From contig JAGGAB010000035.1 in assembly GCA_017889705.1 (NCBI GenBank), positions 1 to 64,000 of the forward strand: DNA of 64,000 nt, given 5' to 3'. The translations under genes and the position numbers were made by a program. This DNA comes from Bacillota bacterium. GTDB lineage: Bacteria > Bacillota > Negativicutes > Sporomusales > Sporomusaceae. Under the pieces are notes generated by a model that did not search any database, was not told where the DNA came from, and saw nothing but the letters and a program-made list of their open reading frames with translations. Numbering within the stretch: position 1 is the stretch's first letter; the number at the start of each line of letters is the position of its first letter. This document shows, in pieces, positions 509 through 21,269 of the stretch.

Positions 509-536
509 TAGTCTATGATGCTTAACATCTAAAGGT
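509..536 (-). promoter_or_regulatory. Candidate sigma-K promoter for the repeat-protein gene
   Basis: On the minus strand AC (536-535) is followed after 17 nt by CATAGACTA (517-509), matching the sigma-K pattern AC-N16/17-CATAnnnTA. It lies about 90 nt upstream of the GTG start at 417. Experimental support is absent. Confidence 0.5.
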
Positions 537-596
537 TAGTAATATAGACATAAAAAACATGATGCTTTTTAAATAACCTAGTATATGCCCTCACGC

Positions 597-624
597 ACAA
601 TATTGTCAGGTCGAACATATAGTA
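597..624 (+). promoter_or_regulatory. Candidate sigma-K promoter for the first glycosyltransferase operon
   Basis: AC at 597-598, a 17-nt spacer and CATATAGTA at 616-624 match the sigma-K pattern. It sits about 30 nt upstream of the ATG at 653, back-to-back with a similar minus-strand element. Confidence 0.5.
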
Positions 625-652
625 AAGGGGACATATATTCGGGGGTGGAAAA

Positions 653-2623
653 ATGCCTGCAATTAGCCTATGCATGATTGTTCGCGATGAAGAAAAATCG
701 ATTGCTAAATGCTTAACCAGTGTTAAGGAAATAGCGAATGAGATCATTGTTGTGGATACAGGTTCTAACGATGACACAAAAAAAATAGCCACCAGTTTTG
801 GCGCTAAGGTAATAGACTTTGATTGGAATGGTAGTTTTGCAGATGCCCGCAATGCATCCATTGAAGCTGCAAAAGGCGATTGGGTGCTGTTTCTTGATGC
901 CGATGAATATCTGGATATTGCCACCCATGAGGCGTTGCGTAAAGCAGTGACGCATGGTGACGTAGAAGGCTACTATATACCTATTGTTAATTTTTTTGGC
1001 AATGAACAGCAGCCGGAACAGTGTAAAGAACTACTGTTCCGTTTGTTTCGTAATCGCAGGGAATACAGATTCCGGGGGATTATTCATGAACAAGTGCTAA
1101 ATTCAATTTTGGAGAAAGATCGTAATGCCAAGATTGATATCGCCCATGATGTTACCATCTATCATTATGGATACTTGGACAGTCAGATTCGGGAAAAAGA
1201 TAAGATAAACCGCAATCTGAAAATTCTGGAGCAGCAGATTAAGGATTTCCCTGAAGATCGATATGTGCAATATCAATATGGCTTGGATCTTTATCGGGCT
1301 GAGCGCTATGGCGAATCTATCGAAATGCTGAAAAAGTCATTGGCAGGTCTTAAACCCGGTGGATCGGCGGGAATGTATTATCCTAAGTTAATCAGATTGC
1401 TGATTATGGCTCATTATCAGGCCCACAGATATGAAGAGGCAATAGAATATGTTAAATATGGCGTGTCTCTATATCCGGATTATGCAGACTTATATCATTA
1501 TGGTGGATTGTGTTCCTACGAGCTTAGGGATTATGGCACAGGTTTTGAGTATTTTAAAAGGGCTACGGCTTTAGGAGAACAGCCTTATATATATGGATCT
1601 TATCCCGGCGTAAGAGGGTTTCGAAGTTATTTCTACTTGGGAAAAATTTGCGAAGAATTTGAGCGCGCGGAAGAAGCTTTAGGGCACTACTTGGCAGCAT
1701 TCCGCGCGAACCCTTCTTTTCATATTGCGTTAGCGCAAATAATTCGGATTTTGGTGAAAGGCGAGGAAAAAAAGGACATCAGGATTGCTCTTGCAAATTT
1801 GTGTGATTGTTGTACAGCCGATGCCAATTTCCTGGTAGGAGGCATGTTGTTTAACGAACGATGCTATGAAATTGCGGGGGAGTATTTCGAGGCTGCGGTA
1901 GAACGGGGATTGAAGACAGCCGAGTTTGATATCTGGCGGGCTATGTGTTTTGTGCAGCAGGATAAATATACGGAAGCTTTACAATTGCTTGACCAATATA
2001 TAAATGACCGGGAACAACAGGTAAAAGTAATGGTTACCAAGACTATTCTTTTTTGGTTTCAGGACGATGTTTTTAATGTTAGAGGTATTACCGACAGTCT
2101 GATCCAATTGGGTCTGGATGAGGACTTTTTGGCGATAGTTAGGCTGTTAAGATCAGAGGATATAGGTCTTGTAAACATAAGGGCGGACTCATCAGAACTG
2201 TTTTTTGATATTTTACTGAGAGCTATGGATCATGGCAACGTTAAAAAGGTGGATGGCATTTTAGCTAAGATGCAGGAGGAATGGATAAAGATGTCTGCCT
2301 GCAGGCTTATGCAGATGTATCTTAGGTATAACCAACTTGATGAAGCAGAGCGATATGGACGTATATGTTTAGATACTACTCCAGACGATTTTGATGTACT
2401 TGTATGTATGGGTGAAATAAAAACTAAAAAAGCAGAGTTTTGGGAAGCCGCAGAATATTACCGGGCTGCTGCTAGTTTGGCTCCGTATAGACCTAAGGCC
2501 TACATTAACTTATTGAAAGTGTATGATGAACTTAGTTTGGAAGCTTTAAAAAATGCAGCAGAGAAACACCCTGACATAGAATTATTCAAAACTATGCTGG
2601 CACAGGAGGCGGCTAGGCAATGA
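653..2623 (+). CDS. Family 2 glycosyltransferase with TPR-like repeats
   Basis: 656 residues, ATG preceded by a GGGGGTGG ribosome site. Residues 1-170 form a GT-A (family 2) domain with the nucleotide-sugar motif DTGSNDDT near 35-42 and the metal-binding LDADEYL near residue 85, followed by the subfamily signature RGIIHEQV. The remaining ~450 residues are helical and TPR-like (for example EEAIEYVKYGVSLYPDYADLY). No membrane segment or signal peptide is seen, so it probably acts in the cytoplasm. It is first of four overlapping genes and belongs to a paralogous triplet with the next two. The acceptor is unknown; the divergent repeat protein is an obvious candidate, by context only. Confidence 0.85.
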   Translation: MPAISLCMIVRDEEKSIAKCLTSVKEIANEIIVVDTGSNDDTKKIATSFGAKVIDFDWNGSFADARNASIEAAKGDWVLFLDADEYLDIATHEALRKAVTHGDVEGYYIPIVNFFGNEQQPEQCKELLFRLFRNRREYRFRGIIHEQVLNSILEKDRNAKIDIAHDVTIYHYGYLDSQIREKDKINRNLKILEQQIKDFPEDRYVQYQYGLDLYRAERYGESIEMLKKSLAGLKPGGSAGMYYPKLIRLLIMAHYQAHRYEEAIEYVKYGVSLYPDYADLYHYGGLCSYELRDYGTGFEYFKRATALGEQPYIYGSYPGVRGFRSYFYLGKICEEFERAEEALGHYLAAFRANPSFHIALAQIIRILVKGEEKKDIRIALANLCDCCTADANFLVGGMLFNERCYEIAGEYFEAAVERGLKTAEFDIWRAMCFVQQDKYTEALQLLDQYINDREQQVKVMVTKTILFWFQDDVFNVRGITDSLIQLGLDEDFLAIVRLLRSEDIGLVNIRADSSELFFDILLRAMDHGNVKKVDGILAKMQEEWIKMSACRLMQMYLRYNQLDEAERYGRICLDTTPDDFDVLVCMGEIKTKKAEFWEAAEYYRAAASLAPYRPKAYINLLKVYDELSLEALKNAAEKHPDIELFKTMLAQEAARQ

Positions 2624-4368
2624 CCGGGCTAATTAGTGTTGCTATGATTGTTAAGGATGAGGAAGCTATGCTGGAAGCCTGTTTGGATAGTGTGAAGGAA
2701 ATCGCGGATGAGCTTGTTATTGTGGATACAGGTTCTGTTGATAAGACCATAGAGATAGCAAAAAGCTACACTGATAAGGTCTATTGTTTTTTGTGGCAAG
2801 GGGATTTTAGTGCTGCCCGTAATTTTGCTATTAACCAATGCAATTGTGAGTGGGTTCTGTCTATAGATGCTGACGAACGAATAGAGGTCAGGCAAGAGTA
2901 TTTGCGGGAACTAATTACGAATACAACCAAAGAGGCCTTTATGTTGCCACTTAAAAACTTTAGCGGCCCCGGCGATAGTGATTTCAACATAATTAGTGTA
3001 TTACGACTGTTCCGCAATTTGCCGCAATACCGTTATATAGGGAAAATACACGAACAGATTAGAATTGCAAACCAGGAAGCGGTTGGTTTTAGCGATTATC
3101 CGGTTATCAGTCATAGCTATATCGAACCGCGGCGCCGCCAGGAAAAACGTTGGCGTAATTTGCATATGTTGACAGCCCAGTTACAGGATGAACCCCAAAA
3201 TGAAGCCTATATTAAGTACTATTTGGGTTGTGAATGGCTGGGATTGGGCCGGTATCAACAGGCTGCCGAATGTTTTCGTTGGGCCTATGAACAACTGGAT
3301 AAGAATCACATATTTTTTCGGTCAAGTGCTGTGCGCAATCTGGTTGCTTGCTTACGGTTTTTGGGGAAGCTGAAGGAAGCGTTAGCGATTTGTATGAGGG
3401 AAACGGCGGTATATCCGGAATATACCGATTTGTTTTTTGATGGCGGCGTCGTGTTGGAACAAATGAATGAATATGAGGCGGCACGGCGGTGGTTTGAGGC
3501 TGCCGTTTCCTTAAAAACGCCGCCTACTGTGTACTGGCACTGCAACGGCACCGAAACCTTTTTAGCGCAATATCATTTGGGACATTGCTGCCAGATATTA
3601 GGGAGGTCCAAGGAAGCAGAACAATGGTATGAACAGGCACTTGCGGCTAATCCAAAATTTATTTATCCGTTGTATGGACTATATATGGTGTTGATAACTA
3701 AGAAGAGCTGTGAGGAAATTATCGACTACTTCCTACACCGAGGATATTTGGCAGGTGAAGAAGGAATGCAGGCACTGGGGGCACTCCTCTTTACTAGCGG
3801 ACGACCTGACTTAGCGGTAAATGTGTGTAATCAACAAGCAAACGCAAGAATTTATTCCGGCGATCTGATTAAGTATTACCTGTATAGCAGCGATGCTAAA
3901 CAGGCTTTAGCCATAATTGATGAGCTTCAGACCGGGCAAGAACTATATGATATGGTAGTTAGGAAGCTGGAAATACTTTGCTATACTTTCCTGCATGATT
4001 TTGATACAGCTAAGGCTAAGTGTCTGGCTATGTGGCATTACCAGACGATGCGGGCTGATGCGCTGGCTTTGCTGACGCTTGTTAAAAGATTAGCAGGACA
4101 GCGACTGAATTTCAGCGAAAAATACCAACCCGTTTTGATTGAGAACTTGCTTGAGATAATTGCTGACTGTGCGCATGCGTGCGGAGAATTTTCGGGTATC
4201 TTTACGCAGGCAGCCAAATGTTGTGCGGAAATCTTGAGTGATTCAGAGCTGGGAAGCCGGGCTTTGCTTAATTTCTGGCAGGGTGAGAGAAAGGGTATAG
4301 AGATGCTGCTTGATGTAAGGTATAAAAGTGCGCGGGGTTTATATGTATGGAAAAAGGATGGTTGTTGA
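2620..4368 (+). CDS. Family 2 glycosyltransferase with TPR-like repeats (second paralogue)
   Basis: 582 residues; its ATG overlaps the preceding stop as ATGA, so translation is probably coupled. The catalytic domain shows DTGSVDKT near residue 36, IDADERI near 86 and the signature YIGKIHEQI near 140. Helical TPR-like repeats follow (for example RYQQAAECFRWAYEQL). It is the same architecture as both neighbours but diverged along its whole length, which suggests different sugar or acceptor specificity. The substrate cannot be read from the sequence. Confidence 0.85.
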   Translation: MTGLISVAMIVKDEEAMLEACLDSVKEIADELVIVDTGSVDKTIEIAKSYTDKVYCFLWQGDFSAARNFAINQCNCEWVLSIDADERIEVRQEYLRELITNTTKEAFMLPLKNFSGPGDSDFNIISVLRLFRNLPQYRYIGKIHEQIRIANQEAVGFSDYPVISHSYIEPRRRQEKRWRNLHMLTAQLQDEPQNEAYIKYYLGCEWLGLGRYQQAAECFRWAYEQLDKNHIFFRSSAVRNLVACLRFLGKLKEALAICMRETAVYPEYTDLFFDGGVVLEQMNEYEAARRWFEAAVSLKTPPTVYWHCNGTETFLAQYHLGHCCQILGRSKEAEQWYEQALAANPKFIYPLYGLYMVLITKKSCEEIIDYFLHRGYLAGEEGMQALGALLFTSGRPDLAVNVCNQQANARIYSGDLIKYYLYSSDAKQALAIIDELQTGQELYDMVVRKLEILCYTFLHDFDTAKAKCLAMWHYQTMRADALALLTLVKRLAGQRLNFSEKYQPVLIENLLEIIADCAHACGEFSGIFTQAAKCCAEILSDSELGSRALLNFWQGERKGIEMLLDVRYKSARGLYVWKKDGC

Positions 4369-5795
4369 CAGTTTGTCTTATTGCAAAAAATGAGGAACAT
4401 TGTTTGGGAGCGTGTCTTAACAGCATTAAAGCTTGGGCAGATCAAATTGTAGTTGTTGATACTGGTTCAACCGATAATACGGTGGAGGTTGCCAGCTATT
4501 ATGGGGCTCAAGTCGAATATTTTTCCTGGGAAGATGACTTTGCTGCAGCGCGAAATTACAGCTTGCAATTCGCAGTAGGTGATTGGATCTTGGTATTGGA
4601 TGCCGACGAATATATCGAAGGAAACCTAGAGATGCTGTCAGATCTTGTTGCGAAAGACTATGAAGGCTACTATCTTACAATAAAAAGCCCCTTGGGAATC
4701 GGTGTTGAGAGCGAGGATCATGTGGTACGATTTTTTCGAAACGGTCGCGGGTATACATTTCGCGGAGCCATTCATGAGCAGATAGCATCTAGTATAGAAG
4801 AACATAAGGGCAAGGCGGCGATTGGCTTTTCCCATATTATTGTCAAACACAGGGGCTATGTTCCAGAAGAAATTCTACGTAAACAGAAGGGGAATCGAAA
4901 CAGCCGAATCATTAAAAAACAGTTGGAAAAACGACAAGAGGATACTTTTATGCTATATAGTCTTGGTATTGAGCTTGTTCAACAGGCACAGTACGAAGAA
5001 GCATATAATGCAGCTATGAAAGCGCTGCATTATATGACTGGGGAGGAAGGGTACTTCAGGGAAGTAATACTGCTTGCGCTAATGTCAAGCTTCAAAAAGG
5101 GCAACTATGGCGAAGCAGAAGAAGAGTTATTTGTAAAGGCGCTTAGCATGCTGCCCGAGGATGGTGATATAGCGTTTTTAGCAGGATTGCGTCAAGCATT
5201 ATTGGGAGATTATCATCAGGCAGGGGAGTTGTTTCTCAAAGAAGGCTGCAATACTGTCCTTGTGCCTGCTCACCTCATTCATGCAATCCTTGGCGAGCTT
5301 TTCTTTAAGCAGGGTTTATGGTCGGAGGCAAGTGGCTATTTTAAGCGGTCATTGGAAAAAATGCCGTCCTTGTATAGCGTGGTAAGGCTGATTGAAATTA
5401 TGAATCAGGGGCAGACCGATGTTGATAAGGCACTGGCTGATGCTATGGACGGGCATTTTATTAAATTGGCACAGGAAGCTGTGCAAGAAGAGGATTATTA
5501 TGCGGCGGCTGTTATTTGTCTTGTTGCCGTTGCTAAAGATATACAAAACTTTGATCAATGCGATACCTTATATCAATTGCTCATAAAGCAAGCAAGCGGT
5601 ATGCCAGTAAGCGGTAAGGAATATTTGAATATTTTGTACCAACAAATCGAGATATGCAAGGCTGTTTTAGCAACCGATAAAAAGTGTCTGATAGTATATG
5701 GTTATCTGGCAAAGGCAGTAACTAAGAGTCTGGATATGTGGTTAGCCTTGTGGCCTGAACATAATGTGAAAAACATTTGGGAGTGTTGTTTGTGA
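4347..5795 (+). CDS. Family 2 glycosyltransferase with TPR-like repeats (third paralogue)
   Basis: 482 residues, starting inside the 3' end of the previous gene (22-bp overlap). The GT-A domain carries DTGSTDNT near residue 36, LDADEYI near 84 and FRGAIHEQI near 135, then a shorter helical repeat region (AQYEEAYNAAMKALHYM, GNYGEAEEELFVKAL). It ends in a GTGA overlap with the next gene. It is probably part of one cytoplasmic glycosylation set with its paralogues; donor and acceptor are unknown. Confidence 0.85.
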   Translation: MEKGWLLTVCLIAKNEEHCLGACLNSIKAWADQIVVVDTGSTDNTVEVASYYGAQVEYFSWEDDFAAARNYSLQFAVGDWILVLDADEYIEGNLEMLSDLVAKDYEGYYLTIKSPLGIGVESEDHVVRFFRNGRGYTFRGAIHEQIASSIEEHKGKAAIGFSHIIVKHRGYVPEEILRKQKGNRNSRIIKKQLEKRQEDTFMLYSLGIELVQQAQYEEAYNAAMKALHYMTGEEGYFREVILLALMSSFKKGNYGEAEEELFVKALSMLPEDGDIAFLAGLRQALLGDYHQAGELFLKEGCNTVLVPAHLIHAILGELFFKQGLWSEASGYFKRSLEKMPSLYSVVRLIEIMNQGQTDVDKALADAMDGHFIKLAQEAVQEEDYYAAAVICLVAVAKDIQNFDQCDTLYQLLIKQASGMPVSGKEYLNILYQQIEICKAVLATDKKCLIVYGYLAKAVTKSLDMWLALWPEHNVKNIWECCL

Positions 5796-7297
5796 TTAAG
5801 GTAGTCATTGGCAGTCCGGTGAAGCAGAAACCTGCAATTTTAGAGCAGTTTCTACAGTCACTGGACACTCTGGACAGTCAAGGGCTGGCGATAGAATACG
5901 TATTCGTAGATGATAACGAAACAACAAGCAGTCTGTTGTGTGACTTTGCCGGAAAACATGCTAATACTCTGATTATTAGAGGAGATAATCCCTTAACATA
6001 TTTTTGTAATGAGGAAACCCACTGTTGGCGGGAAAATCTCATTTGGAAAGTAGCTGCCTATAAAGACGAAATCATTGAATATGCGTTGCGAACAGGAGCC
6101 GATTATTTATTCCTTGTTGATTCTGATTTGTATTTGCAGCCACAAACACTTAAGCATCTAATTGGATTGAAAAAGGATATCGTGTCTGAAGTTTTTTGGA
6201 CTAAATGGACCCAGGAACTCACTGCTTTACCGCAGGTTTGGGTAGGCGATCAGTACAGACTGTTTTCTGTGGCACGCGGGGAACAGCTTAGTGAGAATGA
6301 ACAAGCGGCAAAAACAGAAGAATTTATTACCATGCTCAAAACTTCCGGTGTTTATAAGGTGGGCGGTCTGGGAGCCTGTACGCTGATCAGCCGTTATGCA
6401 CTTGAGAAAGGTGTAAGTTTTAAAGAAATTTATAACCTTGGTTTTATTGGGGAAGACAGGCATTTTTGTCTACGGGCGGTGGCCTTGGGTTTTGAACTTT
6501 ATGCAGACACCTGGTATCCGCCGTTTCATATCTATCGGGAATCTGAATTAGCAGATTTAGTTGAGTATAAGGCTAACGTAAAGAATAACGCAAATCGTCC
6601 TAAACTAACGGTGGGTATGTTGGTGAGAAATGAAAGCGGGCGGTATTTAGAACGGGTTTTGCAGCAAATTACCCAATATGCGGATGAAATAGTGGTTTTG
6701 GATGATGCGAGTACAGACGATACTGTTGCCATCTGCCGCAAACAACTTGCAAATGTACCGCATCGTATTGTTGAAAATAAAACCAGTAAATTTGGTAACG
6801 AAATAGAACTGCGTAAAGCGCTATGGGACTTGGCTGTAAGTACTCAGCCGGATTGGATCATGATTTTGGATGCCGATGAAATATTTGAAGCGAAAGCCAT
6901 CAGTAGCATTAGGGAATTACTAAAAGATGACAGCGTGGATGTGATTTATTTTCGCTTATATGATATGTGGAATGAAAATAGCTTACGGGAAGACGAGTAT
7001 TGGGCCGCCCATTTGGTATACCGGACATTTTTGGTAAGGCTCCGTTTCGGTTACGACTATAAGTGGCAGGAGAAGCCGCTGCACTGCGGCAGATTCCCGG
7101 TAAATATTGCTGGCCTTCCAGGCAAACAAAGTCAATTACGCTTACAGCATTTTGGATGGGCTCGTCCGGAAGACAGGATTGCAAAATACTTCAGGTACAA
7201 ACAGTTAGACCCTGCGGCTAAATACGGAATTGCCGAACAGTACCTTTCCATTCTTGATCCTAAGCCTAATTTAATACCTTGGCGGGATGACGACTAG
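5792..7297 (+). CDS. Two-domain glycosyltransferase
   Basis: 501 residues from GTG 5792, which overlaps the previous stop (GTGA) and has GGGAG upstream; a TTG at 5777 is possible but lacks a ribosome site. The N-terminal half (about 1-250) looks like a divergent glycosyltransferase fold with VDSDLYL near residue 112. The C-terminal half starts at KLTVGMLVRNES and has a second family 2 domain with DDASTDDT and LDADEIF. Two GT-A domains in one chain suggest two successive transfers or a chain-extending enzyme. It is last in the four-gene set and is followed by a clear terminator. Confidence 0.8.
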   Translation: MIKVVIGSPVKQKPAILEQFLQSLDTLDSQGLAIEYVFVDDNETTSSLLCDFAGKHANTLIIRGDNPLTYFCNEETHCWRENLIWKVAAYKDEIIEYALRTGADYLFLVDSDLYLQPQTLKHLIGLKKDIVSEVFWTKWTQELTALPQVWVGDQYRLFSVARGEQLSENEQAAKTEEFITMLKTSGVYKVGGLGACTLISRYALEKGVSFKEIYNLGFIGEDRHFCLRAVALGFELYADTWYPPFHIYRESELADLVEYKANVKNNANRPKLTVGMLVRNESGRYLERVLQQITQYADEIVVLDDASTDDTVAICRKQLANVPHRIVENKTSKFGNEIELRKALWDLAVSTQPDWIMILDADEIFEAKAISSIRELLKDDSVDVIYFRLYDMWNENSLREDEYWAAHLVYRTFLVRLRFGYDYKWQEKPLHCGRFPVNIAGLPGKQSQLRLQHFGWARPEDRIAKYFRYKQLDPAAKYGIAEQYLSILDPKPNLIPWRDDD

Positions 7298-7907: not shown

Positions 7908-8801
7908 ATGAGAAAAGTTACAATAATTGGTGTGCCAATGTGGCTTGGACAAACGCACTTTGGCACACATTTAGGACCTGATGCCATCAGGTCGGCTGGT
8001 TTGATAGAGCAATTGCAGTTAAGCCATAGTGAGGTAGTTGATGCCGGAAATTTACCAATAAATATTGAAATAGATGTAGTTTGTAGCTCGAATAGCTGCA
8101 TTGTCCGCAACCTCGAGGGCGTTTGCGCCGGTGTAAGTCGTTTGGCGGAAAAGGTTGCACAAACTGTTAAGGACAGGCGATTTCCCCTTATTTTGGGCGG
8201 GGATCATAGTAGTTCCATTGGCTCGTTGAACGGTCTTTCCCGGCATTATCGCAATCTGGGCGTCATTTGGTATGATGCCCATGCTGACAGTAATACACCG
8301 GAGACTTCACCCAGCGGCAATGCTCAGGGTATGCCACTGGCTGCCAGCCTTGGTCTAGGCCATCCTGACTTGATTGAGATTGGCGGCTACCGCCATAAAG
8401 TTAAGGCTGAGAATGTTGTGTTAATTGGTATTCGCGACATCGATCCGGGAGAAAAACAGCTTATTCAGGAAAAGCAGATAAAGACCTTTACCGCAGAAGA
8501 CGTACATCGATTGGGGATAAGCGCGGTAATGGAAGAGACCATTGCCTATCTGGGCAGGCAATGTGATGGTATCCATTTGAGTTTTGATATGGATGTAATT
8601 GATCCAAGCGAAGCTTGCGGTGTAGGAACACCGGTTGCCGGCGGAATCTCTATGGATAGCAACCTGCAAGCAATGAACATTCTGGCGCAGAGCAAGGTAA
8701 TCACATCAGCTGATTTTGTTGAACTTAATCCTTTGCTGGATAAAGATAACCAAACAGCCAAGGCGGCAGTTGCGTTAATACAAGCTTTGCTTACAGATTA
8801 G
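7908..8801 (+). CDS. rocF: Arginase (ureohydrolase family)
   Basis: 297 residues, ATG with a strong site AAGGGGGAAAT. Arginase hydrolyses L-arginine to ornithine and urea in the cytoplasm with a binuclear Mn centre. The metal ligands are all visible: GGDHS near residue 97, DAHADSNT near 122 and SFDMDVIDP near 222. SGNAQGMPLA fits the arginase substrate loop better than that of agmatinase, so arginase is preferred over agmatinase or formiminoglutamase. It is monocistronic: repeats lie upstream, and its last 11 bp overlap the convergent beta-lactamase gene. Confidence 0.85.
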   Translation: MRKVTIIGVPMWLGQTHFGTHLGPDAIRSAGLIEQLQLSHSEVVDAGNLPINIEIDVVCSSNSCIVRNLEGVCAGVSRLAEKVAQTVKDRRFPLILGGDHSSSIGSLNGLSRHYRNLGVIWYDAHADSNTPETSPSGNAQGMPLAASLGLGHPDLIEIGGYRHKVKAENVVLIGIRDIDPGEKQLIQEKQIKTFTAEDVHRLGISAVMEETIAYLGRQCDGIHLSFDMDVIDPSEACGVGTPVAGGISMDSNLQAMNILAQSKVITSADFVELNPLLDKDNQTAKAAVALIQALLTD

Positions 8802-9609
8802 CCGCAGGCAATATACCAAGGTCTTTGGCAATTTGCTTGCTAATTTCCCTGGCCTTGCCGCCTATCGCCCCATCTTCTGCTTCGATGTTAGTGGCAAAAA
8901 TGTACCGATGCCCCTGGTTGTCGATGCAGCCGACAAACCAGCCTAAAATCCATTTTCCATCCTGAAAGCCGGAACCTGTTTTGCCCATGAGCTTAACACC
9001 GTTAGTGTCAGATAGGGTGATATTCTTTGTTACTGCTGCCTGGGTTTCAGGCGAGAAAGGCAGTTCGTTGGAATAGAGTTTGTTGAGGAGGTTAACCTGT
9101 TCCATAGCTGAAATTTGCAATGAAGAGCGCAGCCAGAAGGTTGTCAGTCCGCCAGATATGTCATGGTTGCCATAATTGATTTTATTGAGGTAGCCCTGCA
9201 TGCGTTCTTGCCCAATACGGGAGGCAAGCTCCTGGAAGTACCAGACCACTGACTCTTTGGTGGCAGATGCCAGCGTATGGTCATGGTTCCAATAGGGAAA
9301 AGGATAATTGGTGCCATTCCATTTGAGGAGGGTATATACATCTTCATGGTCAAGTACGCCGGTTTCCAGGCCGATGAGGGAGTTGTAAATCTTAAAGGTT
9401 GAGCAGGGTGACAATTGTTTCTGACTTTGCGGCTCATTATAAATGATATAAGTATCATTGGTCTGGTCATACATAACAAAAGTACCGGTAAATCCTTCGA
9501 AGTATTTTGCTAAGTCGTCACGTATAGTGACTTCAGCTGCATTGGCAGAGGTAAGGACAAAACTGAGAACCATAACACACAAGGTAAGTATGAGTAATCT
9601 TTTCTTCAT
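8791..9609 (-). CDS. Class D (OXA-type) beta-lactamase
   Basis: 272 residues from ATG 9609, preceded by AGGAGG; a longer frame to 9717 lacks a ribosome site and would bury the signal peptide. Residues 1-24 are a Sec signal peptide (KKRLLILTL..., likely cut after ANA). Class D serine beta-lactamase motifs are in order: active-site STFK, SVV (SxV), YGN and KTGS, plus the class-typical WYFQELA. It would hydrolyse beta-lactams outside the cytoplasmic membrane. It lies downstream of and co-directional with the FHA regulator, but a strong hairpin separates them, so it is probably transcribed on its own. Confidence 0.9.
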   Translation of the reverse strand: MKKRLLILTLCVMVLSFVLTSANAAEVTIRDDLAKYFEGFTGTFVMYDQTNDTYIIYNEPQSQKQLSPCSTFKIYNSLIGLETGVLDHEDVYTLLKWNGTNYPFPYWNHDHTLASATKESVVWYFQELASRIGQERMQGYLNKINYGNHDISGGLTTFWLRSSLQISAMEQVNLLNKLYSNELPFSPETQAAVTKNITLSDTNGVKLMGKTGSGFQDGKWILGWFVGCIDNQGHRYIFATNIEAEDGAIGGKAREISKQIAKDLGILPAANL

Positions 9610-9697
9610 GCGAGCATTCCTCCTAAGTTTTCTTATGATGTAAGTATATTCCAATTTGGTAGGAAATAAAATGACGGTTTCCTGATAAAACCATGAT

Positions 9698-9751
9698 AAA
9701 GAAGCCACGACTTGCACCGAGCTAACGCTCGGCGCAAGTCGTGGCTTCTTT
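9698..9751. terminator. Long perfect hairpin, probable terminator overlapping the FHA gene 3' end
   Basis: An 18-bp arm AAAGAAGCCACGACTTGC (9698-9715) pairs with 9734-9751, and an inner CCGAGC/GCTCGG stem closes on TAAC. The stop codon of the minus-strand FHA gene (9722-9724) lies in the loop region, so its last ten or so codons are part of the hairpin. The minus-strand T-tract is short. Confidence 0.65.
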
Positions 9752-10417
9752 AATTTCTAAAATACATCCCTGACCGCGCCGCGTTTTTAACAGGCTGCGG
9801 TAGATGCCGAATTTGCGGCGCAGGCGGTATACAATAGCATTGATTTCGTCCAAGCCTACATCAGGTTCATTATTGTTAAGCACCGGGCGTTCTGGCCAGA
9901 CAGTTGCAGAGATGGCTGTATAGCTAACGAGTTTGCTGCGGTTATGATACAGTAATTCCAGCAAACACCATTCCTTAACCGATAACGGGATTTCCTGTTT
10001 GTTTATAGATAGGATCTTGTTGGTTGTGTCGATAATAACCGGTACGTCAGCCGGGGAAGGCTGGGTATTTTTTAATGACCGCGTGTTTTCAAAATCCAGT
10101 GTTTTTTCTAGTTCCGGTGCAATTGCGAAACGAAGCAGCACGATGCTCGTTGCCAGCGTGATTTTATCTCCGTGATGTAAGGGGTAAGGAAGACCGGGTT
10201 CTAATGGCTGGTCATTGAGCCATGTTCCGTGTTTGCTGCCTAAATCCGATATTGACCAAGTTCCATCAAGCTGAGTAATTGAGCAGTGCTTGCGGGATAT
10301 AAGTAAGCTGTCAAATGAAATATCGGGTTTGAACAAGTTGGTAGCCCGGCCTAAGCTTACTTCGCTTTGCAACAATGGAAAGCACATCCCTTTTTCATAC
10401 GGGATATCACTTTCCAC
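9722..10417 (-). CDS. FHA domain plus winged-helix (OmpR-type) regulator
   Basis: 231 residues from GTG 10417. Residues about 1-95 are a forkhead-associated phosphothreonine-binding domain (SLGRATN, ISRKHCSI, SKHGTWLND). Residues about 130-225 resemble an OmpR/PhoB C-terminal DNA-binding domain (LSVKEWCLLELLYHN, VYRLRRKFG, TRRGQGCIL). There is no receiver domain, so the likely input is a Thr-phosphorylated partner. The GTG start has no ribosome site and clips the first FHA strand; the frame continues to 10472, and an AGAAGGTGAT site at 10460-10469 sits before an in-frame ATA at 10454-10456. The true start may therefore be about 13 codons upstream. The target is unknown; the beta-lactamase gene is next. 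Confidence 0.75.
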   Translation of the reverse strand: MESDIPYEKGMCFPLLQSEVSLGRATNLFKPDISFDSLLISRKHCSITQLDGTWSISDLGSKHGTWLNDQPLEPGLPYPLHHGDKITLATSIVLLRFAIAPELEKTLDFENTRSLKNTQPSPADVPVIIDTTNKILSINKQEIPLSVKEWCLLELLYHNRSKLVSYTAISATVWPERPVLNNNEPDVGLDEINAIVYRLRRKFGIYRSLLKTRRGQGCILEIKEATTCAER

Positions 10418-10939: not shown

Positions 10940-11034
10940 ACCCTAACAGAAAGTATAACTTTCTTAAAAGCAGGATAAGAGCAACATCGGCTTCCGCCGT
11001 CGCTAAAAGCTTGGCGCAAGCCGTGTTTTCTTTA
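10939..11034 (+). repeat. Dispersed repeat (family 3, copy 1)
   Basis: The block beginning CCCTAACAGAAAGTATAAC and ending GCAAGCCGTGTTTTCTTTAT recurs at 21300-21393 in the same orientation. It contains the palindrome AGAAAGTATAACTTTCT. It ends in a CGGCTT..GCC / GGC..AAGCCG hairpin with a T-rich tail, so it may act as a terminator module. Confidence 0.7.
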
Positions 11035-12876: not shown

Positions 12877-13398
12877 TTAAATGGGAATGGCTTGCAAAAA
12901 CAAAGTCACATTTTTAAATATTTCCCGGCAGTTAAAAGGCATTGCGAAAACGTCTTCAACACAGGTTTCAACGCAAAATTGCTGATCCAAAGGTGTGTCG
13001 CAGGCCAATACAATAAATGCTGAGAAGGGGACAGTGAAATGTGCAAAATGAACAGGTTGATTACAAAGGGCCGCCGTATAAACCACCTTTTGTTTTAAAA
13101 TGCCTTCCACAATCAGTTTTTTGCCTGTTAATCGTAAGCCTTCGCGATTAACAATTGGCTGGTGGCACTCTCCGGCCGGTGTTTTCACAATCTTTATGGA
13201 CTTGATTTGTACATCAATAAAAACTTTGTCGATCTTTTCAACATCTGGTTTGCTATAAGGTAATTGCAAAACCTCCGGTATGGATATTTGCGTCCATTGA
13301 CCAAGATCACACTTATTCAGGCCTAACGAAACTTGATTCGCATCACATAAGCCTATTACTTCAACGGCATTTTGTTCCAGGCAGGGGCATGTTTTCAT
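12877..13398 (-). CDS. SPOCS-domain (DUF3794) protein
   Basis: 173 residues covering essentially one SPOCS domain: WTQISIPEVLQLPYSKPD near the start, GKKLIVEGILKQKVVY in the middle and VHFAHFTVPFSAFIVL near the end. An N-terminal CPCLEQN adds cysteines. It is last of three co-directional SPOCS genes (25-nt gap to the next upstream), which share a sigma-K-like promoter at 14691-14718. Its likely role is spore coat or exosporium structure. Confidence 0.8.
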   Translation of the reverse strand: MKTCPCLEQNAVEVIGLCDANQVSLGLNKCDLGQWTQISIPEVLQLPYSKPDVEKIDKVFIDVQIKSIKIVKTPAGECHQPIVNREGLRLTGKKLIVEGILKQKVVYTAALCNQPVHFAHFTVPFSAFIVLACDTPLDQQFCVETCVEDVFAMPFNCREIFKNVTLFLQAIPI

Positions 13399-13423: not shown

Positions 13424-14053
13424 CTATATGCAAATTTCCGGCGATATAACAGGTAATGCCCTGATTACTAAGGTTACATTTTTAAATATTTGTCTTGGCG
13501 TAATTTCTGCCACATAAATATCTTCAATACAGGCATCAATTTTAAATTTTCTTGTCGGCGGATCATCCGGTGCCAGAATAATAAATGCCGAGAAGGGAAC
13601 GTCAAAATGCGCGGCATGAACGCTTTGTTCTTCTACTGCAGCCGCATACACAATTTTTTGTTGCAGAACTCCTTCCACAACGAGTTTTCTGCCGGTCAAA
13701 TTGGTGCATTCCTCATTGGTAAAAACCATGCAGTCATCACCTGGTGTGCGAATAACCTGCTGCGAAATAATCTCTATTGAAGCAGAAATACTGATTATCT
13801 GCTCAATATCAGGTTTTTGACAAGGAATACACAGTACTTCCGGAATAAATAACTGTGTCCATCTTCTGATACAGCCGAAATCCAAAAATTTTTCCAATTG
13901 TTCTTTAGGACATACGCCGTTAATGATTACCATTTGATCCGGTTGTTCACAGTCGCTAGGTGAAGGTCTTTCAAAATTACCGGCAATGCTGCATTCAACA
14001 TTGCCAATGGTTACCTTACACTCGTTATGGCAATCGATATTGCAATTACGCAT
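13424..14053 (-). CDS. SPOCS-domain (DUF3794) protein, Cys-rich N-terminus
   Basis: 209 residues. About 60 N-terminal residues contain several Cys (NCNIDCHNECK). The SPOCS domain follows with WTQLFIPEVLCIPCQKPDIE, GRKLVVEGVLQQKIVYAA and VHAAHFDVPFSAFIIL. It ends with the family-typical IFKNVTLVIRALP. It is the middle gene of a three-gene minus-strand unit (34-nt gap upstream). Cysteines may cross-link in the coat, by inference. Confidence 0.8.
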   Translation of the reverse strand: MRNCNIDCHNECKVTIGNVECSIAGNFERPSPSDCEQPDQMVIINGVCPKEQLEKFLDFGCIRRWTQLFIPEVLCIPCQKPDIEQIISISASIEIISQQVIRTPGDDCMVFTNEECTNLTGRKLVVEGVLQQKIVYAAAVEEQSVHAAHFDVPFSAFIILAPDDPPTRKFKIDACIEDIYVAEITPRQIFKNVTLVIRALPVISPEICI

Positions 14054-14087: not shown

Positions 14088-14633
14088 TTAATATTCATCC
14101 ATTGTTGTCGGAACAGCCTGTAAAAATAGCAGGACGTTTTTAAATACTCGTCGTTTCCCAACTTCCTGAACAAACACATCTTCAACACAAGGATTAACTT
14201 GATAGTTGATATATAAGGAATCAATCTTTTTGTCGCTGCAGGTACATTCATTTACAATCCTTACATACTTCGGGATGACAATAAAAGCTGAAAATGGTAC
14301 TACGAAATGAGCAGAGTGAACCGGCTGATTAGGGAAGTCGGCGGTATATGTGATTGACTGGCAAAGTACGCCTTCGATTATGAGTTTTCTGCCTGTTAAT
14401 ATTTTATTCTCAAAATTTGGTGCCTTTTCTGTACTGGGGGTTACTATAACTTTTGTTCGGACGATTTTTGCACCAACGTTTGCTGAAATGATTTGTTCGA
14501 TATCAGGCTTTTCTCTGGGGAGAATCAAATTTTCAGGAATTGAAATTTCTGTCCAACTATCGTTATCATGTAATTCAATTGTGCTGACATCGCAAATTCC
14601 GGCAATATTGATTAAACTGCTATCCACTTCCAT
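14088..14633 (-). CDS. SPOCS-domain (DUF3794) protein
   Basis: 181 residues, start preceded by AAGGAGGAATG. The single SPOCS domain shows WTEISIPENLILPREKPDIE, GRKLIIEGVLCQSITY and VHSAHFVVPFSAFIVI, ending in RRVFKNVLLFLQAVP. It is first in the three-gene minus-strand unit and lies just downstream of a promoter matching the sigma-K pattern. It is probably a structural coat component. Confidence 0.8.
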   Translation of the reverse strand: MEVDSSLINIAGICDVSTIELHDNDSWTEISIPENLILPREKPDIEQIISANVGAKIVRTKVIVTPSTEKAPNFENKILTGRKLIIEGVLCQSITYTADFPNQPVHSAHFVVPFSAFIVIPKYVRIVNECTCSDKKIDSLYINYQVNPCVEDVFVQEVGKRRVFKNVLLFLQAVPTTMDEY

Positions 14634-14690: not shown

Positions 14691-14718
14691 TATTATATGT
14701 TGCGAATTCAGCAGTGGT
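14691..14718 (-). promoter_or_regulatory. Candidate sigma-K promoter for the three SPOCS genes
   Basis: Minus strand: AC at 14718-14717, 17-nt spacer, CATATAATA at 14699-14691. It is the same pattern and spacing as four other elements in the window. Confidence 0.55.
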
Positions 14719-14964: not shown

Positions 14965-15459
14965 ATGAGTCGGAGACATCATCGAAAAAGTACGCAGCTA
15001 GCCCTGAATGATACCTTGTTACTTCCCTGCGATAAACCTGATATCGAATGCATATTGCGCGCGACGGTAACCCCGTCCTTTGAAAAAGTAATGGCGGCAG
15101 ACCGGAGACTGATTTTTTCCGGGGACATACTTATCCATGTCGAATATGTGGCCTGCGTTCCGGACGGCTCGCAGCCGATACATTTTGTTTCCTTAAAAAA
15201 ACCTTTTGATGGCATGATTAGTCATCGGTATGCCTGTAAAGGCATGCATGCTCAACTAAAAGGGGTGGTGGAAATTTTTGAATTCCAGGTTATAAATCCG
15301 CGAAGCATTAGACTCTCACTGAATCTGCTGGTGTATTCCGTTAGATTTGCACATGAATCCAGACCTTTGCCCCCTCACATCGGCGTGCCCTGTAATAATT
15401 TGTATGGCAACGATCAGCTGCGAGGGTTGCTGACAGCAGACGCTGCTTTGCAGGAATGA
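14965..15459 (+). CDS. SPOCS-domain (DUF3794) protein, short type
   Basis: 164 residues, ATG after GAGGAGGGTTC. It shows LLLPCDKPDIECILRATV, RRLIFSGDILIHVEYVA and QPIHFVSLKKPFDGMI, and is most like the protein at 11869-12564. It lacks the long Cys-rich tail. It stands alone on the plus strand and converges on a glycosyltransferase unit, with a shared terminator between. A spore coat role is inferred from family and context. Confidence 0.75.
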   Translation: MSRRHHRKSTQLALNDTLLLPCDKPDIECILRATVTPSFEKVMAADRRLIFSGDILIHVEYVACVPDGSQPIHFVSLKKPFDGMISHRYACKGMHAQLKGVVEIFEFQVINPRSIRLSLNLLVYSVRFAHESRPLPPHIGVPCNNLYGNDQLRGLLTADAALQE

Positions 15460-15510: not shown

Positions 15511-15564
15511 AAAAGCATAAAAGGCCATCACCTGAAAAGGTTGATGATAGCCTTTTATGCTTTT
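15511..15564. terminator. Bidirectional terminator between convergent genes
   Basis: AAAAGCATAAAAGGC (15511-15525) pairs with GCCTTTTATGCTTTT (15550-15564), and CATCA/TGATG pairs inside. A-rich and T-rich flanks can serve both strands. Confidence 0.85.
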
Positions 15565-15588
15565 GACTGTTTGGATAAAACCAGCCGC

Positions 15589-16689
15589 TCAGTCCATAAT
15601 TAAATTCTTTAAGAATGCCCGGTTATGGTGAATCATGGGATCATCCGGAATAAAAGTTCCGGCTATTTCATTATGTTTACTGGCAAGTTTATACTGGCCG
15701 GCACGGGAGTAACATACACAAAGCTGAAGGTGCGGCAGCCAGGTCTGGCACACATTGTTCACCAAGCCCCAGGCGTCATTGGGACACTCGGCTGCTGACG
15801 CCAACTTATACCAAAATATTGCCTGGTTCAATTGATTGTTATTAAGATGATAAAAACCAAGACGACAGCAAAAATCTGCTCTGGGGATGTCAAACTTAAA
15901 GGACATGTATATATATTTGAGCATATTTTCAACATCATTCAGACTGCTAAAACAGTCGGCTAATTTGCCGCAGGCGCCGATTGTGTCTTCGACCCAGCCG
16001 CCTTTTGCAGCTAGATATTGCTGATAATATTCAATAGCACGGTTATACAGCTTGTGGTCAAATAATTCATTAGCGAAATAGTATAAATCCCGCGGAGAAA
16101 ACTGTTCTCCCTTTTGTTGGCGTTCTTCATAGATTTTCAGATTTCTCTCAGAATCGTGACTGAGCGGCAAGTGCGTGACTGCAATTGGAGAATCGAGGGC
16201 TTTGCCGTATACTTCCAGATATTCATGCACTGGACCAATCCAGAGAAAATTTTTTTTGCGCTTAACAAGACGATTTCGGCGTCGTTGAAAAATGACTTTG
16301 CCATACTGATCAAAGCCCAAATTATAAAGCATGCTGACAACATCTATATCATGGTCAAGCGTTGACTTCAACTTGATGAGAAAATTTTGATCCTGTGGCA
16401 AGAAAACGTCATCAGCATCTAACCACAGAATGAATTCCTGCGTCGCCTGGGTAAAAGCAAAATTACGGGCGGCTGCAAAATCATTAATCCATGTAAAATC
16501 AAACACTTTGTCAGTGAATTTTCTAACGATATTTTTGGTATTGTCAGTTGAGCCTGTATCCACAATTATGATTTCATCAACAATTCCTTCTGTTGAACGC
16601 AAACAGCGTTCAATGGTTTGCTCTTCATTTTTAACAATCATGCACAGACTTATTGTAATCGGTGTTTGTGGCTTACCTTTCTCTGACAT
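15589..16689 (-). CDS. Family 2 glycosyltransferase with helical repeats
   Basis: 366 residues from ATG 16689, which is correctly spaced from GGAGG; an ATG two codons earlier abuts that site. The GT-A domain shows SLCMIVKNEEQ, DTGSTDNT and LDADDVF, with IGPVHEYLE in place of the HEQ signature of the genes at 653-5795. The C-terminal half has TPR-like repeats (YNRAIEYYQQYLAAKG). It is third in a unit with GDP-mannose dehydratase and another transferase, behind a sigma-K-like promoter. The substrate is unknown. Confidence 0.85.
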   Translation of the reverse strand: MSEKGKPQTPITISLCMIVKNEEQTIERCLRSTEGIVDEIIIVDTGSTDNTKNIVRKFTDKVFDFTWINDFAAARNFAFTQATQEFILWLDADDVFLPQDQNFLIKLKSTLDHDIDVVSMLYNLGFDQYGKVIFQRRRNRLVKRKKNFLWIGPVHEYLEVYGKALDSPIAVTHLPLSHDSERNLKIYEERQQKGEQFSPRDLYYFANELFDHKLYNRAIEYYQQYLAAKGGWVEDTIGACGKLADCFSSLNDVENMLKYIYMSFKFDIPRADFCCRLGFYHLNNNQLNQAIFWYKLASAAECPNDAWGLVNNVCQTWLPHLQLCVCYSRAGQYKLASKHNEIAGTFIPDDPMIHHNRAFLKNLIMD

Positions 16690-16719
16690 ATCCATCCTCC
16701 TGCAGGCTGGTAATTAGGT

Positions 16720-17481
16720 TCATATTGTGATATTCAGTGCTTTAAAAGCTTCTTCTGTATCACAAAAGGTAAGTTTGCCATAATAACGGCGATTGTCAAT
16801 ATATTGGGGTATACCTGCCTTTCTAAGCGTATCGCTGAATATTACATAGTCATAACGATTACTGCCGTCAATGTAATTAACACAATCCAAAACCTCATTG
16901 CGCACTAAGTAGGTGCAGTGGATTACTTCCACTTCGATTAATCCTCTGATATGCTGGTAAAGAATTTCAAAATACTGCGGTGCATGCCGGTAATACCCAT
17001 TTTCGTCAGTAACAAAATGATAATTGGCATAAAAAGCCAGTGGATTATCAGCAAGCCTCAGTAACGGCCCAATGACCGGCAAGCCGGTATTAAGCAAGGT
17101 TTCTACTGTTTCCGGGACAATAAAATTATCGCAATCTGCCACAAAGTAATGGGAATTCTTCTTTTTGGCCCAGGCTACTGATTCTTGACGTATCTGTGTC
17201 AACACATTGAGGCGGACGGTATTCCATTCATGGGGCTGATAGTTCTGTACCGGTGCTGCAACATCTGTGGCGTCAAAATAAATTTCTGAATACCTGTCCC
17301 GGACTTTTTCGACCCACTGCGCAAGTATGGCAGCAGTATTATCGTTGTTGTTGTTTGTTCGGATATAGAGCTTAATCAGCGAAGACGGGTAGGTTTGGTT
17401 TTCGACGAGGCTTAGATAAAGCGGCAGAACATGAGCTTTATCTTTGGCAAGAATGGCAATGGTAATATATTCTGGTTTCAT
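16720..17481 (-). CDS. Glycosyltransferase-like protein (GT-A fold)
   Basis: 254 residues from ATG 17481; a GTG five codons upstream abuts the AAGGAG site. The N-terminus ITIAILAKDKAHVLPLYL and the DCDNF motif near residue 118 suggest a GT-A fold nucleotide-sugar enzyme related to Anp1-like or family 2 transferases. The rest is not recognised. It lies between the GDP-mannose dehydratase gene (8-nt gap) and a family 2 transferase gene, so GDP-6-deoxy sugars could be donors; that is inference. Confidence 0.65.
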   Translation of the reverse strand: MKPEYITIAILAKDKAHVLPLYLSLVENQTYPSSLIKLYIRTNNNNDNTAAILAQWVEKVRDRYSEIYFDATDVAAPVQNYQPHEWNTVRLNVLTQIRQESVAWAKKKNSHYFVADCDNFIVPETVETLLNTGLPVIGPLLRLADNPLAFYANYHFVTDENGYYRHAPQYFEILYQHIRGLIEVEVIHCTYLVRNEVLDCVNYIDGSNRYDYVIFSDTLRKAGIPQYIDNRRYYGKLTFCDTEEAFKALNITI

Positions 17482-17504
17482 TATATGAAAGTACACTCCT
17501 TACT

Positions 17505-18521
<1,017 letters not shown>

Positions 18522-18538
18522 TCACATGCCGTATGTGG

Positions 18539-18566
18539 TATTGTATGCGCGTAATTGGCCAGTGGT
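18539..18566 (-). promoter_or_regulatory. Candidate sigma-K promoter for the gmd unit
   Basis: Minus strand: AC at 18566-18565, 17-nt spacer, CATACAATA at 18547-18539. The -10 also fits the sigma-E form CATACAnT, but the -35 fits sigma-K better. Confidence 0.55.
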
Positions 18567-18647
18567 GACAGTGGACAGCGATAATAGCGGGTGGTTTACA
18601 TAGACGTCACCTGTTCCAATCGCTATATGGCAGCTTCAATAAAATAA

Positions 18648-18680
18648 GAGGTTCTCACCCTAAGATGAGAACCTCGTTAA
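18648..18680 (-). terminator. Terminator after the BclA-like gene
   Basis: GAGGTTCTCA pairs with TGAGAACCTC (18648-18657 with 18666-18675). On the minus strand it is followed by a T-rich TTATTTTATT. It lies about 35 nt past the stop at 18710. Confidence 0.8.
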
Positions 18681-18709
18681 ACTTTTTAAAGTAACGGTAA
18701 TTTTAGCGG

Positions 18710-20461
18710 CTAATTATCGATCAGTTTGAACAAGCGTAAAGCAGCAGAGACTACGGTAGTTGAATCTGCAGAAATATACAAGGTGTCAGTACCTGTGCCG
18801 ATATTTCTAAGTGTTATGATTGAGCCGTCATTGGCCTCTATGATTCCAAAGCCTTGCACCGGATTTTGAACATTGGCTCCATTTGGATCAATACCGGAAG
18901 TTGTTTGGATAATTTCGCTGCCATCAACAGTAATGGCATAAGCTGCGCCAAAATTGCCGCCTGCCGAAAGTACCGAGACTGAAAAATCAACAGCGTAAAA
19001 GCCGCCGTCAACAATCGTTATCTGCGCAGCATCGCCTGAAGTTGGCCAGGTTATGCCGCTCGTGGAGAAGCCAGAATCGAATTCAAGGTCTTCATCACTA
19101 GCAACAGTTCCATCGGTTAGTCTCCAGAAATTACCGTATTCAATAAAGCTTGCGCCGGTTAGGCCGGTAGCCCCAGTAAGGCCGGTAGCACCAGTTAAGC
19201 CAGTAGCACCAGTTAAGCCGGTAGCCCCAGTGAGGCCAGTAGCCCCAGTGAGGCCAGTAGCACCAGTGAGGCCGGTAGCCCCAGTAAGACCAGTAGCGCC
19301 AGTAAGACCAATAGCCCCAGTAAGACCAGTAGCGCCAGTGAGACCGGTAGCTCCAGTTAAGCCGGTAGCCCCAGTAAGGCCAGTAGCACCAGTCAAGCCA
19401 GTAGCCCCAGTAAGACCAGTAGCGCCAGTTAAGCCAGTAGCCCCAGTAAGGCCAGTAGCACCAAGGCCAGTAGCACCAGTAAGGCCGGTGGCACCAGTTA
19501 AGCCAGTAGCGCCAGTAAGGCCGGTAGCACCAGTAAGGCCGGTAGCACCAGTTAATCCGGTAGCACCAGTAAGGCCGGTAGCAGCCCCAGTTAAGCCGGT
19601 AGCGCCAGTAAGGCCGGTAGCCCCAGTAAGGCCAGTAGCCCCAGTTAAGCCGGTAGCAGCCCCGGTTAAGCCAGTAGCCCCAGTGAGGCCGGTAGCCCCA
19701 GTAAGGCCGGTAGCCCCAGTTAAGCCAGTAGCCCCAGTAAGGCCAGTAGCCCCGGTTAGGCCGGTAGCCCCAGTAAGGCCGGTAGCACCAGTAAGGCCAG
19801 TAGCGCCAGTAAGGCCGGTAGCACCAGTTAAGCCAGTAGCCCCAGTAAGGCCAGTAGCGCCAGTAAGGCCAGTAGCACCAGTTAAGCCGGTAGCACCAGT
19901 GAGACCAGTAGCGCCAGTTAAGCCGGCAGCGCCAGTAAGGCCGGTAGCCCCAGTTAAGCCGGTAGCCCCCGTAAGACCGGTAGCACCAGTAGCCCCAGTC
20001 AGACCCGTAGCGCCAGTACCCCCGGTAGCACCGGTAGGACCTAATACATCAGGCACTTGAACGATTACCAAGGAAGCTTTAACAGGTACCAGTGGTGAGT
20101 ACGTTACTACACTTGGTGTTTGGTTTACTAAGCTTAATGTTACCGAGGCTGGAACTTCAATCAGTGCAAAACCGACAACTTCACCTGTTTTCAAGGGGGA
20201 ATCTCCGGGAATTTCCTGATCAAGAGATGTTACTATGGAAAAAGTAATACCATTGGGAATGGGGCCTCCAACTCCTGCTGTTTGTGTGGTAACAAACCAG
20301 TTGATAAGATATCTTCCAGGTTGGGATATAGTTATTTCGTCTGTTGCCGGATTATAGACTACAGCTCCGGAAGAAAATACTGTATTATCAAATTCTACAT
20401 TCGCACCCGGATTGATTGTGCCGGTTGCTCGCCTTTCTATTTGAAGACCTACGGTACTCAA
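18710..20461 (-). CDS. BclA-like collagen-repeat spore surface protein with two flanking globular domains
   Basis: 583 residues, TTG start with AGGGAGGGGATT upstream. Residues 1-139 form a beta-rich domain ([34 protein letters not shown]). About 300 residues of collagen-like Gly-X-Y follow, almost all GLTGAT. Residues about 440-583 are a second beta-rich domain ([31 protein letters not shown]) like BclA C-terminal, TNF/C1q-type trimerisation heads. Three register breaks occur: two GLTGAAT insertions and one GLGAT deletion. There is no signal peptide, as is usual for spore-surface proteins made in the mother cell. Thr in the repeats is a typical O-glycosylation site in BclA. The opposite-strand frame through the repeat is an artefact. 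Confidence 0.85.
19147..20043 (-). repeat. 18-bp tandem repeat array encoding GLTGAT
   Basis: About 50 near-identical 18-bp units, with variation mainly at third codon positions. Length changes are likely by slippage. Irregular units lie near 19460, 19580 and 19655. Confidence 0.9.
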
Positions 20462-20519
20462 ATATAATCCCCTCCCTACATGTGCACTGAAAAGTATTCA
20501 AACTTCCTGTGCAATATTT

Positions 20520-21203
20520 TTAGATTGATACATTAATAATGGTTAGATCTGCTTTTACTGGAGTTGCACCAAAGAATATTGTGCTGTCAGTGTCATTAAT
20601 AAGAGCCAAAGTAACGGGGGCTGCTGCAACAGAGATTAGGGCATTGCCGCTTACTTCACCTGTCACGATAGGACTGGAACCTTTGATGTTATCGCCGGCA
20701 CTACTTACAATCGCAAAGGTTGGAACTAAGTCTGTTCCGTCTACCAGACCGTCTGTTGATACCCACCAATTAATATAGAATACGCCTGTTTGCGTAATCG
20801 TTATTGTACCTAGTAGATAGGAAATAGTGTCTGATTGGTCGCTGACAATAGTATCAAAAATGATTGGCGCCCCTTCTGCGACAGATTGGGCATCTGGATT
20901 TTGCAATTGAATCTGAAGTCCGCGTAATTGAGTTGGCAGACCGGCGCCGGTAGCTCCGGTAACACCGGTTGCGCCGGTAGCCCCAGTAGCTCCAGTAGCT
21001 CCAGTAGCTCCAGTAGCTCCAGTAGCTCCAGTTGCGCCAGTGGCCCCGGTATGACCCTTCGGTACACAAGAACCACATACTTTAGTAACATGGTCTTGTG
21101 GTGAGTCATAGTGATGGTGGTGGCAATGACGGGAAGAAGGTTCTTTTTTGTATTCTTTTACCTCTAAAGGTCCGAATACCTTAATAGTATCTGATTGATC
21201 CAT
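20520..21203 (-). CDS. Collagen-like protein with His-rich N-terminus and BclA-type globular domain
   Basis: 227 residues, ATG with AAAGGAGAAT upstream. Residues 1-50 are charged and His/Cys-rich ([13 protein letters not shown]). About 11 GAT-type Gly-X-Y triplets follow ([10 protein letters not shown]...), then a C-terminal beta-rich domain ([29 protein letters not shown]) clearly homologous to the N-terminal domain of the downstream BclA-like protein. The downstream gene starts 58 nt after this one, so they are probably one transcript from the sigma-K-like promoter at 21242-21269. Likely a spore-surface or basal-layer protein; the His cluster could bind metal. Confidence 0.8.
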
Positions 21204-21241
21204 AATATTCTCCTTTCTGCCAAATAGAGTACACTACATGA

Positions 21242-21269
21242 TATATTATGATGAGTTATGTTTATTAGT
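21242..21269 (-). promoter_or_regulatory. Candidate sigma-K promoter for the collagen-like genes
   Basis: Minus strand: AC at 21269-21268, 17-nt spacer, CATAATATA at 21250-21242, about 40 nt upstream of the ATG. Confidence 0.55.

Follow-up and report, generated by a model that had tools for sequence, protein, structure and literature searches.

Predicted sigma-K promoters upstream of glycosyltransferase and spore-surface genes in a member of the Sporomusaceae

In Clostridioides difficile the collagen-like spore-surface genes bclA1-3 are described as being under sigma-K control, with promoters of the AC/CATA type (PMC3789822), and SgtA, encoded immediately upstream of bclA3, is reported to add O-linked N-acetylglucosamine (O-GlcNAc) to threonine residues of the collagen repeat, as found in BclA3 peptides (PMC7157674). 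The promoters of SigE and SigK in that organism have a common -10 and are distinguished by the -35 (ATA for SigE, AC for SigK), a choice decided by Gln or Arg at one position of the sigma factor (PMC3789822). For Bacillus subtilis, late mother-cell genes are described as driven from SigK promoters whose -35 is short and whose -10 is of the CATA type; the spacing in the published logo (15 +/- 1) is not directly comparable with the spacing used here because it is counted between longer elements (PMC517825). Here we analyse a 64-kb stretch of DNA (the window; contig JAGGAB010000035.1) from a bacterium of the Sporomusaceae, in which five sites of the form AC-N17-CATANNNTA (N17, 17 nt of any sequence) precede a Thr/Ser-rich repeat-protein gene, an operon of glycosyltransferase (GT) genes, a triplet of SPOCS-domain genes, a unit headed by gmd, and a pair of collagen-like genes. 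We predict that these five units form a regulon of the late mother cell that serves the spore surface, which is the best reading of the data.

The five sites and their conservation

All five sites have the -10 CATANNNTA and a -35 AC at N17, and the coordinates and strands given for them in an earlier note on this sequence are exact (Table 1). That list of five was incomplete, because the exact pattern is found ten times in the window. Seven of the ten sites are intergenic with a gene on the same strand next downstream, as judged by a simple caller based on open reading frames (ORFs), and the -10 is 37-170 nt from the called gene start. The caller is crude: it placed the start of gmd at 18428, where the ORF list has 18476. 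These distances and the split between sites upstream of and inside genes are therefore approximate. The other three sites (5692, 31983 and 43457) are antisense within genes. The earlier claim that the pattern is always at the 5' end of a unit is therefore true of the five chosen sites and not of the pattern itself, and it is weakened further by sites 579 and 38121, which are intergenic but not conserved.

The claim that this number of sites is unlikely by chance was borne out. Dinucleotide shuffles of the window (n=100) gave a mean of 2.18 matches (sd 1.65, maximum 6) against the ten observed, and the rate in the rest of the genome (140 matches) predicts only ~1.8 (Poisson, 2e-5). A composition-matched null for the intergenic DNA, covering 33 stretches of the window (6,755 bases), had a mean of 0.35 and a maximum of 4 in 2000 simulations, against seven observed. 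Ten other spacings (12-22) gave 0-3 matches each in the same intergenic DNA, against seven at N17.

Homologues of the first GT gene were taken as matches at E 1e-60 among 12 genomes (denoted by G numbers; G000 is the genome of the window). AC-N17-CATATANTA is present upstream of all eight (the window, G001, G002, G003, G005, G006, G008 and G011), including those of G008 (40% identity) and of G011, which belongs to another genus (41%). The site of the divergent repeat-protein gene, CATAGACTA with AC at N17, is kept in five of the eight (the window, G001, G002, G003 and G005); it is missing from the stretch that was read in G006 and G011, and in G008 another N17 site is present. When five species were aligned, the GT and repeat-gene motifs were each invariant in 8/8 columns, while the spacers were invariant in 5/17 (GT) and 8/17 (repeat gene) and the rest of the intergenic stretch in 46/151.

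At the SPOCS triplet, homologues in G007 and G008 keep the gene order as well as the site. The SPOCS gene divergent from the triplet has a related promoter with CATAAACTA in 3/3 species and a variable -35, AC-N16 being found only in G007. SipL and SpoVID, two proteins of coat morphogenesis, contain SPOCS (DUF3794) domains (PMC6436350, PMC10867305). The gmd site is present in 2/2 close orthologues and in two of three distant homologues (both from G002, at N17); the distant homologue in G007 has no N17 site upstream. The site of the collagen-like unit is conserved at related or paralogous genes only, with comparable promoters at two genes of G007 (N17) and one of G008 (N16). The distant gmd homologues and the DUF6385 checks agree with the reading as a sigma-K regulon, except for the gmd gene of G007.

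The kinds of gene named in the earlier note were recovered downstream of all five sites. Pfam identified GT2-TPR, SipL/SPOCS, gmd and collagen-like genes. The repeat gene, as far as it is preserved on the contig, is 53% identical to a protein of G005 carrying Pfam DUF6385; the fragment gives no DUF6385 match of its own.

Table 1. Pattern matches and associated genes in the window. Promoter assignments are predictions.
Feature	Position	Strand	Basis
Sigma-K-type promoter of repeat-protein (DUF6385-type) gene	509-536	-	exact pattern, conserved
5' part of Thr/Ser-rich repeat-protein gene, truncated by contig start	1-417	-	translation, S+T 32%
Sigma-K-type promoter of GT operon	597-624	+	AC-N17-CATATANTA, 8/8 homologues
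Four consecutive GT2 genes	653-2623, 2620-4368, 4347-5795, 5777-7297	+	overlapping ORFs, Pfam Glycos_transf_2; TPR in first three
Sigma-K-type promoter of SPOCS triplet	14691-14718	-	GGAACCACTG and CATATANTA at N17 in 3/3 species
Three SipL/SPOCS-domain genes	14088-14633, 13424-14053, 12877-13398	-	Pfam SipL
Divergent SPOCS gene	14965-15459	+	Pfam SipL; related non-exact promoter
Sigma-K-type promoter of gmd unit	18539-18566	-	AC-N17-CATACANTA, also in close G008 orthologue
gmd unit: gmd, Anp1-like GT, GT2	17505-18476, 16720-17496, 15589-16695	-	Pfam GDP_Man_Dehyd, Anp1 (below cut-off), Glycos_transf_2
Sigma-K-type promoter of collagen-like unit	21242-21269	-	exact pattern
Two collagen-like genes	20520-21203, 18710-20461	-	Pfam Collagen: first 26.9 bits (cut-off 27.2), second clear
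Further match, probably chance or species-specific	579-606	-	exact pattern; 2/8 motif columns invariant in five species
Further match upstream of ApbE, probably chance	38121-38148	+	exact pattern; G007 and G008 homologues without such a site
Further matches	5692-5719, 31983-32010, 43457-43484	-	exact pattern

Spacing was also counted in a 454-kb sample made up of the window and 20 stretches picked for collagen-like genes, sigK/sigE and their surroundings, and not for the motif. Upstream copies of CATANNNTA in this sample had AC 18 times at N17, six times at N16 and 1-6 times at any other spacing between 10 and 24; one N17 site at a G002 gmd gene (L048) was missed in this count because of the crude gene calling. 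Background stretches gave four at N17 in G007 (400 kb) and three in G000 (394 kb), with 0-3 at other spacings. AC at N17 preceded 25/103 upstream copies of CATANNNTA against 27/499 inside genes (p 5e-8), and among dinucleotides at spacings 12-21 GT at N20 was stronger still (27/103 against 27/499), although p-values for both are optimistic because paralogous collagen promoters contribute. Since both dinucleotides are enriched, the -35 may be extended to GTNAC.

Several other features of the region were noted. Genes for a transpeptidase-domain protein (8791-9717) and an FHA/winged-helix (Trans_reg_C) protein (9722-10417), both on the (-) strand, lie in the interval from the GT operon to the SPOCS genes. 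A terminator-like hairpin (18648-18675, (-) strand) separates the collagen unit from the gmd site at 18539. An exact 19-nt repeat (10948-10966 and 21309-21327) is part of a longer similar intergenic element, which in G007 also precedes a collagen-like gene. A search of the window with Rfam gave nothing at the gathering score. G008 has a collagen-like open frame of 6799 residues (C1, ~4481751-4502000).

Choice of sigma factor and rival explanations

The letters of the SigK consensus used for the comparison with B. subtilis are taken in part from PMC3789822. At all five sites ATA is absent from N14-17. The controls of the SigE type look different: spoIVA has ATA-N15-CATATATT in 4/4 sequences with no AC at N15-18, and spoIIIAA has ATA-N15/16-CATATCTA in 6/7. 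Two of the spoIIIAA sequences also match AC-N17, but downstream of the likely start codon. The region upstream of sigK itself has AC-N17-CATA in 9/9. Additionally, all eight SigK sequences that include the relevant region (G000 among them) read GISRSY, with Arg, and 4/4 SigE sequences read GISQSY, with Gln; this position is taken to be the residue that decides between AC and ATA. From these sequence comparisons, the five sites are very probably SigK promoters.

The same sites could in principle be SigE promoters, as the CATA -10 is common to SigE and SigK (PMC3789822) and SigE is encoded in the genome. We consider this improbable because the SigE-type controls have ATA at N15/16 and no conserved upstream AC-N17, whereas the five sites have AC and lack ATA. 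The matches could also have arisen by chance in AT-rich intergenic DNA, or be vegetative sigma-A promoters. Three of the ten window sites are in genes and 579 and 38121 are not conserved; CATATAATA contains TATAAT, and 579 overlaps a sigma-70-like match on the same strand. Chance or sigma-A is probably the right explanation for 579 and 38121. For the five listed sites it is highly improbable, given that the intergenic null never exceeded four matches and that the motifs are conserved while the spacers drift. The scan for sigma-70-like matches covered the four listed sites that lie below 20 kb, and none of these coincides with such a match on the same strand. The notion that every match to the pattern is a promoter was rejected, as most genome copies that were read are in genes and 579 and 38121 are not conserved.

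A different kind of alternative accepts SigK as one layer of control and adds a second mother-cell regulator, acting at adjoining TTATGT boxes to select which units are active. ACATAA/TTATGT is the top-ranked of 2080 hexamers in the flanks of 16 promoters (9/16 against 26/255 in the background, p 2e-5), with examples upstream of 14718 and downstream of 509. After correction the significance is borderline (~0.046). The 16 promoters were hand-picked from 32 upstream N16/N17 sites, with orthologues and doubtful ones excluded, and several of them are paralogous collagen promoters. We therefore regard a second regulator as possible but doubtful.

Genome-wide distribution and the split sigK gene

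With 150 matches in the genome (5,005,158 bases), against 233 for a reversed control pattern, the motif is overall not an abundant one. Of the 140 matches outside the window, 91 distinct sites were read: 14 are upstream of a gene, 66 are in genes (20 sense, 46 antisense) and 11 are elsewhere. These 11 intergenic sites may hide true promoters because no gene on the same strand was called within the short stretch. The 14 upstream sites compare with ~5 expected from the 5.5% of strand positions that are upstream (binomial, 5e-4), and the window is exceptional in its upstream share (7/10 against 14/91; Fisher, 5e-4). A genome-wide scan for matches away from gene starts, proposed in the earlier note, thus gave a divided answer, with enrichment at starts and most copies nevertheless in genes. 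Ten of the 14 downstream proteins outside the window were run through Pfam; the matches were sigma-70-like, alpha/beta hydrolase, aldehyde dehydrogenase, DUF1450 and rubrerythrin/ferritin-like, five had no match, and no clear surface theme was seen among these ten.

Within the window, the cluster adjacent to the collagen-like unit (21567-34963) encodes glycosyltransferases, a DegT aminotransferase and dTDP-rhamnose enzymes. No sense-strand match to AC-N15 to N18-CATANNNTA was found across 21270-35000, so the glycan genes of the window are only partly tied in by the motif. The suggestion that one regulon joins glycan and surface genes fits the five sigma-K-type units and not this cluster.

Genome contigs were scanned with a single protein, which found no relative, and with an alignment, which found 80 loci. 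The pattern was present upstream of these at N17 in three, at N16 in one and at N10, N15, N21 and N22 in one each, so that N17 does not clearly stand out among them. A DUF6385 repeat-protein gene is divergent to a GT gene in Desulfotomaculum copahuensis, a Clostridia bacterium and Desulfosporosinus lacus (L256, L257, L258), and these three loci lack AC-N16/17 at the GT gene. Our literature search found no mention of DUF6385.

In G000 sigK is split by ~42.5 kb (C36:65503-65928 and 108433-108657; L050, L051), and there is a serine-recombinase gene beside its 5' half. The gene is also split in G001, G003, G007 and G008 and is intact in G002, G004 and G005 (L248, L249, L250, L251, L252). Serine-recombinase genes (Resolvase, Recombinase, Zn_ribbon) are present in the sigK elements of G000, G001, G003 and G007, and the insertions are at two positions, ~140 and ~110 of the family profile. 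In G005 the intact sigK is accompanied by a displaced 3' remnant. Given the split gene in G000, excision should have to precede any activity of the regulon, as with the skin elements described for Bacillus and C. difficile (PMC5025042).

A number of results weigh against a SigK regulon marked by this pattern. By itself the pattern is weak genome-wide, with 66 of the 91 sites read lying in genes, and upstream of GT relatives beyond the family it is rare (N17 at 3/80 loci). Among collagen-like genes that are first in their unit, 7/15 have the N16/17 pattern, against 22/707 others, which counts in favour of the regulon, but the exact pattern is missing from the other 8/15 and the genes, being paralogous, are not independent. 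Among the controls, the sigK sites have T or G in place of the final A of the pattern, and yabG has AC-N15-CATA in 6/7 and nothing in the seventh. For the dipicolinate-synthase gene (dpaA), intended as a further sigma-K control, no protein matched above the family cut-off in 4/4 genomes, so it could not serve as one. The 3' half of sigK in G000 (C36:108433-108657, L005) lacks 12 codons kept in seven relatives, which is either real or an assembly fault. In C. difficile, yabG is reported to be under sigma-K and also sigma-E (PMC10681294). Set against these, the reading of the sites as sigma-K-type promoters stands on AC/CATA elements that are conserved at orthologous genes in four cases and common to related genes at the collagen site; what did not stand is specificity of the pattern across the genome.

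Taken together, the data suggest that SigK-RNA polymerase would, late in sporulation, read the -35 AC (here often GTNAC) and the -10 CATANNNTA 17 nt away. It would thereby transcribe in the mother cell the genes for a Thr/Ser-rich repeat protein, the four-gene GT operon, three SPOCS coat-type proteins, the gmd-GT unit and two collagen-like proteins. The analysis shows the sequence, spacing and position of the sites, their conservation across species, and their contrast with promoters of the sigma-E type; that SigK uses them in vivo, when it does so and that the products are found on the spore is what we infer. The Thr-rich repeats and the gene neighbourhood suggest that the repeat and collagen-like proteins may be the glycan acceptors, which the co-expressed enzymes would glycosylate. 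We put forward a fuller version only tentatively: a lineage-specific extended sigma-K promoter, GTNAC-N17-CATANNNTA, in many cases accompanied by a TTATGT box at which a second regulator would act, might serve to co-express several GT/acceptor pairs. These would include the divergent DUF6385-repeat-protein/GT module, a gene pairing that recurs in Desulfotomaculum and Desulfosporosinus. In some species the entire programme would await excision of an element from sigK.

Comparison with described systems

In this spore former, which has been little studied, a single late mother-cell switch is predicted to govern GTs together with a sugar-nucleotide enzyme and repetitive surface proteins. The exact promoters and the DUF6385/GT pair are now defined as items that can be tested. 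Our literature search found nothing on a sigK skin element in Sporomusa or on sigK promoters in Negativicutes sporulation, and a broader search gave a differential RNA sequencing (dRNA-seq) study of Sporomusa sphaeroides KIAC (PMC12456013). A SigK motif with Bacillus-like spacing is reported there as 1.6% of motifs, and the section on this motif names no spore-surface units (PMC12456013).

The closest likeness is one of gene arrangement, with sgtA-bclA3 of C. difficile, as the gmd-GT2 unit here adjoins collagen-like genes, judged by gene neighbourhood and Pfam. In contrast with C. difficile, such promoters are also found here at gmd, the four-gene GT operon, the SPOCS genes and the DUF6385-type repeat gene. 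The predicted regulon would thus belong with the sigma-K-dependent spore-surface genes already described for C. difficile, while covering a larger set of units.

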